Source: an uncultured Fidelibacterota bacterium
GTDB taxonomy: Bacteria; Fidelibacterota; Marinisomatia; Marinisomatales; TCS55
Direction: 5' to 3'
DNA length: 55,200 nt
Assembly (NCBI GenBank): GCA_902581045.1
Contig: CACHMU010000007.1
Coordinates: forward strand, 1-55,200
The notes beneath the pieces were generated by a model. It did no database searches and was not told the DNA's origin. It was given only the letters and a program-made list of their open reading frames with translations. Positions 15,699 through 22,449 of the stretch are shown one piece after another. A program made the translations under genes and the position numbers. How positions within the stretch are numbered: position 1 is the stretch's first letter; each line of letters starts with the position of its first letter.

Positions 15699-16037
15699 GT
15701 GAAAAAAATCAAAAATATTATTTCTCTAATGCTTGTCATGTGGTTGGGAATATTTTCCCAAATCACTATTTCGCATTTAGGTCATGGTCATGATTTATTG
15801 ACTCCAGAACCTTCATTGTGTACCGAAGATTGTGATAGAGAATCACATCGAAGTTCTAAAGTCGATTGTGACTTATTTGTTGCTAAAAGAATTTTAGAAG
15901 TTAATGGGGTAGTTGCCATTGCTTCTTTAGCCTCCTACGAATCGAACAACCCTCAAGAATGGGTGTTCATTAATCCTCCGAATTCTCAATTAGATAAAAA
16001 TATTTATCTAGTTAGGGGTCCCCCTATCCTTTTGTAA
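15699..16037 (+). CDS. Secreted His/Cys-containing small protein of a metal-handling locus
   Basis: A GTG start gives 112 residues. An N-terminal signal peptide or anchor (MKKIKNIISLMLVMWLGIFSQ) is followed by a metal-ligand cluster: HLGHGHD (about 26-32), CTEDC (41-45), H50 and DCDLF (C57). The arrangement of His then spaced Cys resembles short periplasmic proteins found beside heavy-metal transport genes (DUF2946-like), but I cannot assign a family. Its neighbours are a His-rich lipoprotein and a ZnuD-like TonB receptor, suggesting zinc or another divalent metal. Confidence 0.65.
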   Translation: MKKIKNIISLMLVMWLGIFSQITISHLGHGHDLLTPEPSLCTEDCDRESHRSSKVDCDLFVAKRILEVNGVVAIASLASYESNNPQEWVFINPPNSQLDKNIYLVRGPPILL

Positions 16038-16052
16038 TCAACTCGTTTTCTT

Positions 16053-16079
16053 TTGATGGTTATAGTTATGGACCATCAA
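16053..16079 (+). repeat. Perfect 8-bp inverted repeat between two metal-locus genes
   Basis: TTGATGGT (16053-16060) and ACCATCAA (16072-16079) are perfect inverted copies separated by 11 bp, 16 bp after the stop of the small His/Cys protein and 31 bp before the His-rich lipoprotein. It may be a weak hairpin terminator (TTTT follows) or a dyad operator. Confidence 0.45.
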
Positions 16080-16110
16080 TTTTATCAAAATTTTTACAAT
16101 AGGAAAAAAA

Positions 16111-16623
16111 ATGTTTAAGGATCTTAAAAGAATCAAAAAATTATCTAATACCGTATTTGGTATTTCATTATTACTATTTGTTGTCGCTTGTGAAGATGAG
16201 CATGATCATGATCATGATAATCATACTGATGCAGAAGGATTTATCCTGGAAAATAGTAGTGGAGCTCAAGTATATAAAGAATTTAAAGGAACGACTCAAG
16301 GAACCATAACAGTAAATGCTGGAAGCACTCTTGAATTAACAGTTCATTTTCTTGATGATGATGGTAAAGAAATAGAGCACGATGAGCATGAAGAAGAGGA
16401 AGAAGAAGGTGGTTTAAAAGTTTCTGGGTTCAATTCTAGTATCGCAACCGTTGAAGTTGAAGGTGAAGATGACCACGATCATGGCGGAGAAGAAGAACAT
16501 CATGAAATGGCATTAGAGATTAAAGGCGTTAGTGCAGGGTCAACAAGTTTCAAACTTGAATTGATGCACGGGGATCATGCAGATTATACTTCTACAAATA
16601 ACGTTCCGATTACTGTAAAATAA
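16111..16623 (+). CDS. His/Glu/Asp-rich metal-binding lipoprotein
   Basis: This 170-residue protein has a lipoprotein signal peptide ending VVACEDE (Cys about residue 27). Immediately after it lies a His-Asp cluster (EHDHDHDNHTD). Two further clusters are EHDEHEEEEEEGG (about 90-102) and DDHDHGGEEEHHE (about 119-131). They are set between Ig-like beta segments (TQGTITVNAGSTLELTVHFLDDDGKEI; IKGVSAGSTSFKLELMHGDH). Such runs bind Zn, Ni or Cu in characterised periplasmic carriers. As it lies upstream of a ZnuD-like receptor, it probably captures metal at the outer membrane. A hairpin-forming inverted repeat separates the two genes. Confidence 0.82.
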   Translation: MFKDLKRIKKLSNTVFGISLLLFVVACEDEHDHDHDNHTDAEGFILENSSGAQVYKEFKGTTQGTITVNAGSTLELTVHFLDDDGKEIEHDEHEEEEEEGGLKVSGFNSSIATVEVEGEDDHDHGGEEEHHEMALEIKGVSAGSTSFKLELMHGDHADYTSTNNVPITVK

Positions 16624-16640
16624 GTAAAATCTGAATCAAA

Positions 16641-16691
16641 ACATTTTTGTGCATGCATTATGGAAATGTATTTTATGCATGCACAAAATGT
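16641..16691. repeat. Large inverted repeat between lipoprotein and receptor genes
   Basis: Arms ACATTTTTGTGCATGCAT (16641-16658) and ATGCATGCACAAAATGT (16675-16691) are complementary apart from one extra T, around a 16-nt centre. No T tract follows, so it is not a standard terminator. It may be an operator dyad or an RNA stem that sets the ratio of lipoprotein to receptor. Confidence 0.75.
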
Positions 16692-16782
16692 AAAGTTATC
16701 TAAATCCTAAATTCCTTTTTACCTTTCAGCATGTTAAATGTTGAACGTACAGGGGATCATACGTCTTTTCAAGGGGGAACTA

Positions 16783-19005
16783 ATGTTCAATAAAAAGAAA
16801 ATTCTGTGTGCTTGCTGCGCAGTTTGTGTCGCAGTGCAAGCACAAAATGCATCTGTCTCTGGGAGAGTTCAATCCTCTGAGACCAAAGAGCCGTTGCAAT
16901 CTGTCAATATCGTGATTCCAAATTTAGAATTGGGATCAACTACAGATATAAATGGTCAATTCACAATAAATGATATTCCTTTAGACAACATAGAGTTAGA
17001 GATTTCAATTCTAGGCTATCGTGATACGACTATGTTTATACAAATAGATAATAGTTTAGTTAATCTTGGGAATATTTTTTTAGATCCTGAAGTTTTGCAT
17101 TTTGAAGAAATCAATGTTGAGGTCCATAGTGACCTTGACCCAACTTCTTCACTATCAAGTATTTCCATGTCTGGGAAAGCAATGCAAGAGAATATGAAAG
17201 GTTCAATTGCGAAAACTCTTCAAAACGAACTGGGTGTAGCAATACAGTCGATGGGGCAGGCGACAACAAGGCCTATATTAAGAGGATATTCTGGTGATCG
17301 TTTTCTAATTACAGAAAATGGATTTGAAATCGGTGATTTATCACATACCTCAGTAGATCATGCACTAAGCATGGATTTAGGTGGTGTAGAGGAAATAGAA
17401 ATCATTAGAGGACCTCGTGCTCTTCTTTTTGGGTCAAATACAATAAGTGGCGTTGTTAATGTTGATAAGAACTCTATGCCAGAAGTCAAATTTGATCATT
17501 TTCATTCTTATTTTACATCGGCTTACAATTCTGGTAATAAAGGACTATTTAATAATATTTCATTCATTGCTCCAATGAATAAGAATGATTTTCGTTTTTC
17601 CTTTCAAAATAGAAAAGCTGGTAATGAAATGACTCCAATTGGAGAATTAAAAAACACATCATTAAATAATACTGAATGGTTTTTTGGATTGAGAAGGTTC
17701 AATGATGGAAGAAGAGGAACAGTTAGTATTGAAAATGTTAAAATGAATTATGGAATACCTGGATCCCCTGAAGGACATATTAGTGGTGTGGATTTGAAGA
17801 TGAATAAAACCACTCAAAAATTAAATTATCATCAAGATATTGATTTTAAAGGTTTTGAAACTTTTGATATAGACCAAAAGTTTACTCGTTATAGTCACTC
17901 AGAATTAGAATCAAATAAAACCTTCGCTGCTGTTAAACTGGCTCAAGATATATTTTTTATCCAGTCTAAGTTCACTGGATTGAAAAGAGAATTTGGAACT
18001 TCTGTACAATACCGTTTATTTAAGGCAGGTGGATTTTATTGGACTCCAAACACATCTGAGTTAAACTTTTCATTATTTGGTTTTAGAGAGAAAGACATGT
18101 CTGGTTTAATAGCTCAGGTATCATTTAGGGGAGAATACTCGGTCATAGATCCTAAGGTAAATAAAGGAGCAAGATTTTCAAATATTGATGGTAATTCTGT
18201 AACAAATAAAAATTTTGGCTTCCTCTCTATATCTGCTGGGCTAATTAAATCATGGGAAAACGTACAGCTTTCTTCAACTATAATGAGAACTGGAAGAACC
18301 CCTGGGATTGAAGATCTATTTTCAGATGGACCACATCTTGGAAGTTATAGTTATGAGATTGGGAATCCAGATCTTGACTTTGAGGAAACATTTGGACTTG
18401 AAAACTCCCTGCAATATAAAAAAGATAAATTCTTTTTATCATTAAATGGGTTTTTTAATAAAAGTCCAAATTTTCATCAATACATAAAAATGGGTAATGG
18501 ATATGTACCTGGCTCAGATTGGATAGAATGGGGAAGCGGATCAACTGGATGGCTATATAAATATCAAATGAGGGGGGTTCAAACTGAAATAAGTGGTGGA
18601 GAATTCCAAATGGGATACGAAGGAAGAATAGTAGATATCACGAGTGATTTTTCATTTGTTAAAGGTAAGAATATCTCAGATAATGATAATATTGCATTTA
18701 TGCCTCCAGATAAAATTGGTTTATTGGTCTCAACTAAATCAAATAATGATTTAACTGGATCGATTAGAGTTTCTAAAGTTCTAGAACAAAAAATGATTTC
18801 AGAATTTGAAACAGTGACTCCAGGATATTTGCTAATTGATTTTTTTGGTAGTTATACTTTTAGCACCAGTCAAGGAAACCATCGTTTGGTATTTCAAATA
18901 AATAACGTACTTAACGAAACTTATTATAATCATTTATCAAAAGTAAAAACTATTATGCCTGAAGCAGGGAGAAATATCAGCTTACAATATCGAATTTTGT
19001 TGTAA
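16783..19005 (+). CDS. TonB-dependent outer-membrane receptor, ZnuD-like
   Basis: I place the start at ATG 16783, after a purine-rich GGGGGA, rather than at an in-frame ATG 45 bp earlier; this gives 740 residues and a clear signal peptide (MFNKKKILCACCAVCVAVQA). A carboxypeptidase-regulatory-like domain follows (VSGRVQSSETKEPLQSVNIV ... DINGQFTINDIPL). Then comes a TonB plug with RPILRGYSGDRFLI, TSVDHALSMDLGGVEEIEIIRGPRALLFG and ISGVVNV, which resembles the ZnuD zinc-receptor branch, and a 22-strand-type barrel ending SLQYRILL. Upstream His-rich genes support metal uptake. The gene ends 3 bp from the convergent gene at 19009. Confidence 0.86.
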   Translation: MFNKKKILCACCAVCVAVQAQNASVSGRVQSSETKEPLQSVNIVIPNLELGSTTDINGQFTINDIPLDNIELEISILGYRDTTMFIQIDNSLVNLGNIFLDPEVLHFEEINVEVHSDLDPTSSLSSISMSGKAMQENMKGSIAKTLQNELGVAIQSMGQATTRPILRGYSGDRFLITENGFEIGDLSHTSVDHALSMDLGGVEEIEIIRGPRALLFGSNTISGVVNVDKNSMPEVKFDHFHSYFTSAYNSGNKGLFNNISFIAPMNKNDFRFSFQNRKAGNEMTPIGELKNTSLNNTEWFFGLRRFNDGRRGTVSIENVKMNYGIPGSPEGHISGVDLKMNKTTQKLNYHQDIDFKGFETFDIDQKFTRYSHSELESNKTFAAVKLAQDIFFIQSKFTGLKREFGTSVQYRLFKAGGFYWTPNTSELNFSLFGFREKDMSGLIAQVSFRGEYSVIDPKVNKGARFSNIDGNSVTNKNFGFLSISAGLIKSWENVQLSSTIMRTGRTPGIEDLFSDGPHLGSYSYEIGNPDLDFEETFGLENSLQYKKDKFFLSLNGFFNKSPNFHQYIKMGNGYVPGSDWIEWGSGSTGWLYKYQMRGVQTEISGGEFQMGYEGRIVDITSDFSFVKGKNISDNDNIAFMPPDKIGLLVSTKSNNDLTGSIRVSKVLEQKMISEFETVTPGYLLIDFFGSYTFSTSQGNHRLVFQINNVLNETYYNHLSKVKTIMPEAGRNISLQYRILL

Positions 19006-19008
19006 GGA

Positions 19009-20013
19009 TTATTTGCTTGTTGGCATTCCTCTAAGAGAAATAGAGAATCGCCATATGTCACTTCCTTGGTCCATGTCACCTTCATTGCTTGCAAAAGACC
19101 CATCAATAAAAATAGGTTTTTGCAGATTAAGGGAAATAGCTCCAAACCTCGTACCAAAGAGAAAAGATATGCTGGGTGCAATTGACGTTGATTTTGTATT
19201 TGGAGCTTCCAAATTATTCCAATATCCTTGAGTAGTATGAAGTATGTTTAAAGCATAACCTAGCGAAGTATCATTATCATCAAAACGTTTAAAAATCGAT
19301 GAAAGCACAACATTAATATTCGTTGGAGGTAAATAACCATATTTGCTTTCTGCGATTGGTTTTTCTATAATAATAAAGCCGCCATAAAATGTTGGATTAA
19401 CACTTTGTTTATAATATACCTGCGCCTCAAGGTTGTAGTTATACGTACCGTTACTTAAGCTAAAATGACGATGTTCTTTTGCTTCTTCACCATTTAAAAA
19501 ATATGGATCAGAAGTTAATTGGTTATTTGATGGAATAGTTAATCCACCTCCACCAAAAACACGGATTCCATTACCTAGCCCGGTATTTTTAAACATATAC
19601 CTTAATAGAATTTTTGAATCACCGAATATTCCTCCATTCGCATTATTAAAATCAGTTAAGCTTCCCTCTGTCCTATGGTGAATAGATGAATTAGACTGGT
19701 CCCAATTCATTGATCGAACACCTAAAGTTGTACTTAGGGTTAGATTAAATTTTTGTGAAATTCCGTATACAATGCTGGGGCGGACTATGAACGTATTTAA
19801 TGAACCTTTATGCTTAAAAGGTTCTCCTTTTATAGGATCATGCCACCAATCTATATATGTGAAATGGCTTTGAATCCCATAATATAATGCACCTTTTTCT
19901 GCACCAAAACCTTTATCTGACTCGCCAACTGGCAAGGAGGGGTTACCTCAGAGTGCTCATTGACCATATAAAGCAGCCATAAGTAAAAAGAATATTATTG
20001 GCTTATATTTCAT
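19009..20013 (-). CDS. Outer-membrane beta-barrel protein with two in-frame TGA codons (candidate UxxU selenoprotein)
   Basis: Read without recoding, the gene would start at a TTG (19935) inside a conserved-looking segment and have no signal peptide. In the same frame upstream, ATG 20013 begins a clean signal peptide MKYKPIIFFLLMAALYGQ, then TGA-Ala-Leu-TGA (codons 19 and 22; 19959-19957 and 19950-19948), then GNPSLPVGESDKGFG. Cleavage after GQ, as in other secreted proteins here, would leave Sec-Ala-Leu-Sec at the mature N-terminus, in the place of a CxxC. A hairpin TTGCCAGTTGGCGA follows, its loop 17 nt after the second TGA, matching the SECIS candidate of the Sec-peroxiredoxin at 42988. 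The other ~310 residues are amphipathic strands (transporter-like barrel) ending FSISLRGMPTSK. Total 334 residues. Alternative: a pseudogene with two stops. TGA acts as a normal stop elsewhere in the window. Confidence 0.68.
19922..19935 (-). promoter_or_regulatory. Candidate bacterial SECIS hairpin in the outer-membrane protein gene
   Basis: On the minus strand TTGCC-AGTT-GGCGA forms a 5-bp stem (6 bp with the flanking C-G), with a G as second base of the loop. The loop begins 17 nt after the second TGA and 26 nt after the first, both within the usual distance range for bacterial SECIS elements. Confidence 0.6.
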
Positions 20014-22050: not shown

Positions 22051-22449
22051 ATGATATTAAATAAAACATTTTCTACAATTAACCTTGATAAAATTGCTGT
22101 TTATTTATCAGTCTTTTGCGCAGTTCAATGTCTTCTTTTACCGCTTTCCGCATTATTATTACCTACATTATCTGTAGTTCCATTAGCTGATGAATGGTTT
22201 CATAGTCTTTTATTATTTTTTGTTATTCCAACAAGCGTTTTTGCTATGGCATTGGGTTGCAAAAAGCACAAAAGTTATAATATTATTTTTTATGGAATTT
22301 TCGGGTTGAGTATTTTAATTATTAGCGCGATTTGGGGGCATGACCTATTTGGTGAATCTGGTGAAATAGTTTCAACCTTGGTTGGAACTTCAATTCTATC
22401 TTATGGTCATATTCAAAATCAAAAATTATGTAAACTTTGTTGTCATTAA
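22051..22449 (+). CDS. MerC-domain inner-membrane protein
   Basis: This 132-residue protein has four predicted helices. It carries the MerC signature CAVQCLLLPLSALLLP in helix 1 (Cys at about 23 and 27) and FVIPTSVFAMALGCKKH. A cytoplasmic tail ends KLCKLCCH with a CxxCC cluster. MerC proteins carry mercuric or other soft-metal ions across the inner membrane, but many family members lie outside mer operons and have unknown cargo. No merA or merR is present here. It is 8 bp from msrB and 20 bp before a Cys-rich micropeptide, suggesting one transcript devoted to thiol or metal stress. Confidence 0.88.
   Translation: MILNKTFSTINLDKIAVYLSVFCAVQCLLLPLSALLLPTLSVVPLADEWFHSLLLFFVIPTSVFAMALGCKKHKSYNIIFYGIFGLSILIISAIWGHDLFGESGEIVSTLVGTSILSYGHIQNQKLCKLCCH

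Follow-up and report, generated by a model that had tools for sequence, protein, structure and literature searches.

A gene on the minus strand of the 55,200-nucleotide stretch analysed here (the window) raises the question of whether two in-frame TGA codons immediately 3' of a signal peptide are read as selenocysteine (Sec) and, if so, what a Sec pair would do at the N-terminus of an outer-membrane protein. The only start listed for the gene under translation table 11 is an internal TTG at 19935. With TGA read as Sec, the conceptual protein is MKYKPIIFFLLMAALYGQ-U-AL-U-GNPSLPVGES..., referred to below as the UxxU protein. The main features are:

20013 to 19009, minus strand: predicted UxxU outer-membrane barrel gene, 334 amino acids with Sec at 19 and 22; stop codon at 19009-19011
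19960 to 20013, minus strand: signal peptide MKYKPIIFFLLMAALYGQ, 18 codons; coding-type substitutions in the 15 codons before the first TGA, and Sec preceded by Q in 80 of 81 homologous frames
19957 to 19959, minus strand: TGA1, very likely Sec19, the second residue of the segment that begins with Q18; of 81 frames, 80 have TGA and one TGT
19948 to 19950, minus strand: TGA2, very likely Sec22; again 80 of 81 frames have TGA and one TGT

The reading frame and its two TGA codons

In the 15 codons before TGA1, codon positions 1, 2 and 3 differ 141, 52 and 213 times, respectively, between close pairs of sequences, whereas in a control outside the gene (from 45 codons upstream) they differ 277, 242 and 249 times. 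The differences before TGA1 follow a coding pattern, unlike those of the control, and the stretch upstream of TGA1 is therefore translated in this frame. Elsewhere in the window TGA is an ordinary stop: of 40 open frames with 150 codons or more, 6 end in it. It is very likely that both UGA codons of the barrel gene encode Sec, and by sequence this is close to certain; the presence of selenium in the protein is inferred, there being no biochemistry. Signal cleavage near Q18, giving a mature N-terminus of (Q)-Sec-x-x-Sec, is likewise an inference.

A protein search found UxxU homologues in 82 of 200 related genomes, almost all with two TGA codons, and a profile scan placed the family in 83 of 245 genomes of the phylum (Neomarinimicrobiota). 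Motif-bearing frames were extracted from 81 sequences, including two repeats of one locus. The codon pair at UxxU is TGA/TGA in 79, TGA/TGT in one (L017) and TGT/TGA in one (L024); since 79 of 81 homologous frames keep both TGA codons, the pair is not a chance occurrence. The consensus of the region is [WYFR]GQ-U-[AP]-[LM]-U-[SGTA]-N-P-[ST]-L-P-V-G. Q precedes the first Sec in 80 frames, the remaining one being unreadable, and the downstream N, P and G are invariant. A related record, NZWI01000047, carries a barrel protein 77% identical to that of the window, and a search of a contig collection for close relatives returned one, apparently the same genome as the same-genus sister genome G002. 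Identity to the window protein falls to 19-25% in the most distant members, so the double TGA has outlasted deep divergence, and the signal peptide and the motif Q-U-x-[LM]-U-x-N are retained phylum-wide. No CxxC member with an intact N-terminus was found in any of the 245 phylum genomes; the tabulated copies without TGA are those in which the N-terminus is missing from the available sequence. No homologues were found on plasmids or in viral contigs. Other phyla were barely searched, and absence of the family outside Neomarinimicrobiota is therefore not shown. The family is spread through this phylum, whose members are uncultured and for the most part marine, and calling open reading frames with table 11 truncates its proteins to the internal TTG.

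Two variants were seen in passing. One UxxU copy (L111:7968-8985, genome G006) is broken by an in-frame TAA, and is either a decaying gene or an assembly error. Genomes G041 and G054 carry a tandem barrel paralogue with CALU in place of the UxxU segment, followed by a differing sequence, NAPPPPVGG. This CxxU paralogue (QCALUNAPPPPVGG) lies at L129:6776-7783, minus strand, and in L081; a same-type SECIS of its own accompanies the L129 copy.

The SECIS hairpin

A candidate SECIS element follows the second TGA:

19936 to 19921, minus strand: putative SECIS hairpin CUUGCC-AGUU-GGCGAG, loop 19930-19927; supported by covariation against a synonymous-codon null and by a specificity scan

Counted from TGA2 the loop is 17 nt downstream, and from TGA1 26 nt; the second loop base is G. 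An earlier, sequence-only reading of the locus had reported the double TGA, the internal-only start and both distances, all of which held exactly. In the family as a whole the stem is closed by CC/GG and the loop is GGUC or AGUU; the SECIS loop of E. coli fdhF carries the same GGUC. The single-sequence fold energy of the window hairpin is unremarkable (z -1.06), and covariation was for that reason chosen as the test. In the null, codons were shuffled solely among sequences sharing the same amino acid, 2000 times. The third-position base of the Pro codon pairs with that of the Val codon in 78 of 78 sequences (53 G-C, 25 A-U), and Leu likewise with Gly in 73 of 78, by way of G-C, C-G, U-A, A-U and G-U. 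The shuffle means were 61 and 34, respectively, and none of the 2000 shuffles reached the observed pairing; two more base pairs show the same excess. Such shuffles leave the relatedness of the sequences in place, but the many pair types across deep lineages argue for repeated compensation in the stem despite it. Approximately 10 sequences (AGCCTCCC-GGTC-GGGACGGC) seem to have shifted to a bulged stem.

The hairpin type is also specific. Scanning 622 kb on both strands gave 33 such hairpins of at least 5 bp, 31 of them with a TGA 16-20 nt upstream. These 31 comprise 29 members of the UxxU family, the CxxU paralogue, in which the same hairpin lies over different amino acids, and one Sec thioredoxin-like gene. 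In the UxxU gene a single hairpin is found close 3' of both UGA codons. That it serves both is an inference, and the gene is an apparent case of one SECIS for two UGA codons.

Selenocysteine machinery

In the same genome as the window, selB (C10:9731-11551, 347 bits) adjoins selA (C10:11590-12921, 507 bits), and there is a selD (409 bits) that itself contains Sec, with one TGA (GAGUACK). No tRNA-Sec scored over threshold in the source MAG, which is 58.5% complete; one was found in sister genome G002 (61 bits). When only genomes with completeness of 90% or more and contamination of 5% or less are counted, the UxxU family is present in 0 of 16 judged to lack Sec machinery and in 29 of 66 others (Fisher p=4e-4). 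The 16 belong to families f15, f24 and f25, in which selA and tRNA-Sec were below cut-off, as judged by eye. The p value overstates independence, because the Sec-lacking genomes fall in only a few clades. All family-bearing genomes without selA over cut-off are less than 90% complete. As a separate observation, small-genome and other lineages in f15 (G053 and others) and f24/f25 appear to be jointly without selA, tRNA-Sec and barrel.

The sequence-only reading had proposed a UxxU selenoprotein of no recognised family, and had named SECIS covariation and sel genes as checks. The selenoprotein claim held, with the double TGA conserved phylum-wide and Cys replacements at either position. The first check was passed (0/2000); in the second, selA, selB and selD were found in the genome itself and tRNA-Sec in its sister.

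Predicted structure

The protein fold was modelled with AlphaFold2 and compared with Foldseek:

19012 to 19887, minus strand: predicted 12-stranded beta-barrel, residues 43-329, plus a C-terminal tail

Models built from 51 and 47 aligned members had pLDDT values of 84.9 and 88.6 and pTM values of 0.81 and 0.85. The top PDB matches by fold were FapF (5o67) and the COG4313 channel 4rl8, while searching the PDB by sequence with the barrel protein gave nothing convincing. PF13557 matches only 3 of 51 family members, weakly (best E 3e-6), and the window protein has no Pfam match. The models support the earlier suggestion of an envelope barrel and make it very likely, as a prediction, that the UxxU protein is an outer-membrane channel.

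In the COG4313 channel of known structure, the lumen is occluded by the first ~14 residues, which fold into it (PMC4493636). The Sec pair falls in the arm matching this lumen-inserted N-terminus. Because the first five mature residues have pLDDT <50, the model leaves the position of the arm unplaced, and its location in the barrel lumen is inferred by analogy with COG4313. By strand order, two conserved motifs, HHRxE (112-116) and HRHF (181-184), lie in predicted extracellular loops; their His, Glu and Arg residues are invariant or almost so.

Gene neighbourhood

Two neighbours in the window bear on function:

22051 to 22449, plus strand: MerC-family mercury-resistance membrane protein, three genes from the UxxU gene and a possible functional partner; PF03203, 82.8 bits
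16738 to 19005, plus strand: convergent TonB-dependent receptor, for which ZnuD is the closest NCBIfam model, with a score below cut-off

MerC is the sole mer gene in the window. In deep lineages the linkage is stronger, and the gene belongs to runs that resemble operons. The gene order is MerR-family regulator, MerA, thioredoxin-like protein and UxxU in G178 (L126), and MerA, MerTP-like protein, ArsR and UxxU in G071 (L132); the adjoining MerA scores over the equivalog cut-off in both. UxxU is flanked by MerT, a CopZ-type metallochaperone and ArsR in four more genomes (G171, G003, G064, G024), and in G135 and G137 a Sec lipoamide-dehydrogenase/MerA-like reductase and a CopZ-like protein are nearby. 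Members of a cluster of neighbour proteins other than those scanned were named by similarity. MerT occurs in 19 of 200 genomes and, with positions compared by eye, lies within about 6 kb of the UxxU gene in 12 of the 19; a rough estimate of such proximity by chance is ~1% per genome. In five loci of nearer relatives (L116, L120, L124, L141 and L142), UxxU is followed immediately by an HMA/MerP-like gene. Many close relatives have no mer neighbour, gyrase genes for example being beside UxxU in L117, L121 and L122. CusA/CzcA-type efflux genes, named by eye, are near L119 and L131, and the MerR-family regulator of L126 scores highest to a Zn(II)-responsive regulator. An MsrB gene is two genes from UxxU in both the window and L106. 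With mer linkage strong in deep lineages and housekeeping neighbours elsewhere, mercury is the best-supported substrate, but it is unproven.

The sequence-only reading had called the protein perhaps redox- or metal-active. That was a guess, and the neighbours in relatives favour mercury or another soft metal. The ZnuD-like receptor and the His-rich proteins it described do exist in the window; of the tabulated loci, only that of the sister genome shares them.

Other gene groups were noted. In the window, 15699-19005 encodes consecutively a His-rich small protein, a His/Glu-rich lipoprotein-like protein and the ZnuD-like receptor. This is likely a zinc or metal uptake set, and the trio is retained beside the barrel gene in G002 (L106). 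A lipoamide-dehydrogenase/MerA-like flavoprotein with GGTUVNEGC, whose redox CxxxxC pair has Sec in place of its first Cys, is encoded at L128:10676-12055 (minus strand) and in L143, L087 and L075; the flavoprotein type also occurs in G133 and G146, and is near UxxU in several genomes. A small thioredoxin-like Sec protein, HRADDU(T/K)DGSCC, is found in L090 (about 3138, plus strand) and in L133 and L086 (minus strand), with a Cys form in L126. Its gene is directly 5' of the barrel gene in L090 and L133, and that of L133 has a hairpin with the same CC-AGUU-GG loop.

Proposed function and alternatives

Because its gene sits among mercury-handling genes in several lineages, the UxxU channel may catch mercury or a similar metal at the cell surface. 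In the proposed mechanism, two UGA codons nine bases apart would both be read as Sec with one SECIS, SelA, SelB, SelD and tRNA-Sec. Once exported and relieved of its signal peptide near Q18, the protein would fold as a 12-stranded channel of the COG4313/Phenol_MetA_deg type, with the N-terminal arm in the periplasmic-side lumen. As that arm occupies the lumen in the COG4313 fold, the selenol pair would sit on the channel plug. A soft metal, chiefly Hg(II) or organomercury, would enter past the His cluster, be caught by the two selenols, and be passed to mercury proteins of the periplasm and inner membrane (MerP-like HMA, MerT/MerC) and then to a reductase. Metal binding, the direction of transport and mercury as substrate are all inferred. 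Handling of Hg(II) or a related soft metal, for which there are no binding or transport data, is favoured by a modest margin; the best overall explanation, which we prefer on balance, is a Sec-x-x-Sec outer-membrane soft-metal channel, above all for mercury. Against a mercury channel, MerT is found in just 19 of 200 genomes and the barrel family in 82. A bolder reading, towards which we remain slightly sceptical, joins a diselenol metal trap on the plug of a mercury or organomercury channel with the Sec reductase and the Sec thioredoxin-like protein, as a mercury system of Neomarinimicrobiota that is built on selenium.

The strongest alternative, which remains possible, is that the selenol pair is an envelope redox centre (peroxide, disulfide or methionine-sulfoxide chemistry, or reductive gating) and that the mer neighbours are lineage-limited. 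UxxU resembles CxxC redox motifs, MsrB is two genes away in both the window and L106, the Sec thioredoxin-like gene is directly 5' in L090 and L133, and a redox role is assumed for most known selenoproteins (PMC13188914). However, two Sec instead of Sec-Cys would be unusual for a dithiol-type site, linkage to MerA, MerT, ArsR and CopZ is recurrent, the barrel has no oxidoreductase fold, and the conserved His residues of the extracellular loops suit metal better.

It is unlikely that the channel serves another soft metal or metalloid, or a hydrophobic organo-element compound, and not mercury. The CusA/CzcA-type genes near L119 and L131, the handling of copper also by CopZ-like and HMA proteins, the Zn(II)-type match of the L126 regulator, the ZnuD-like receptor in the window and the hydrophobic substrates to which COG4313 channels are tied (PMC4493636) speak for it; the adjacency, in several genomes, of MerT and of MerA over its equivalog cut-off speaks against.

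Two readings without Sec were rejected on the substitution pattern, TGA stops elsewhere, Cys replacements and the SECIS. Translation from the downstream TTG, with a non-coding, pseudogene or leader sequence upstream, is all but excluded: the TTG is the sole start given by the table 11 ORF finder, but the upstream frame has third-position substitution bias, its signal peptide and motif are kept phylum-wide with Cys at either position in relatives, the SECIS covaries, and the family is missing from genomes judged Sec-lacking. A changed code or general readthrough fits in-frame TGA taken alone, but can be discounted almost as completely, since TGA ends 6 of 40 long frames in the window, Cys alone substitutes for it in relatives, and a SECIS and selA, selB and selD are present.

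Comparison with known systems

Selenoproteins and outer-membrane channels are both known; the combination is new, and the UxxU proteins form a new selenoprotein family, within the literature and models searched. None of the Pfam/NCBIfam models, including Sao, Tso and FCYXU, matches the window protein, and scans of other members gave weak, scattered hits. A 2026 review that tabulates 119 selenoprotein families/subfamilies has none like the UxxU barrel (PMC13188914), and no description of it was found in the literature searched, bioRxiv preprints being outside its scope.

In fold the nearest systems are the COG4313/PF13557 Phenol_MetA_deg channels (Pput2725, 4rl8) and FapF (5o67), which also have 12 strands and a short arm before strand 1. 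The UxxU protein is only 9-12% identical to them, however, and has its own UxxU and His motifs and, in several lineages, metal-gene neighbours. Sec likewise occurs in outer-membrane barrels in the TonB receptor FCYXU (NF049945) and the MtrB/PioB barrel GSU2204 (NF041027) (PMC13188914, Table 1), but those have one Sec each and belong to other families, whereas UxxU has two, on the N-terminal arm of a predicted outer-membrane channel. The SAO (Sec-assisted organometallic) and Tso operons also group Sec proteins linked to mercury or organometals, and NF041115, listed alongside MerT_CopZ_Se, is a metal-binding protein that has a UxxU. All of these are different proteins, for which the review gives no outer-membrane UxxU channel (PMC13188914).

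Genes of the mer system (MerA, MerT, MerP, MerC, MerR) flank UxxU in several deep lineages. Its parts are known from the inner membrane, periplasm and cytoplasm; in UxxU lineages an outer-membrane Sec channel seems to have been added. This offers a connection of selenium with mercury in bacteria that can be put to the test, and a candidate route for mercury across the outer membrane. If the reading is true, a mercury channel with a diselenol trap would be the outer-membrane step missing from the known mer pathway.
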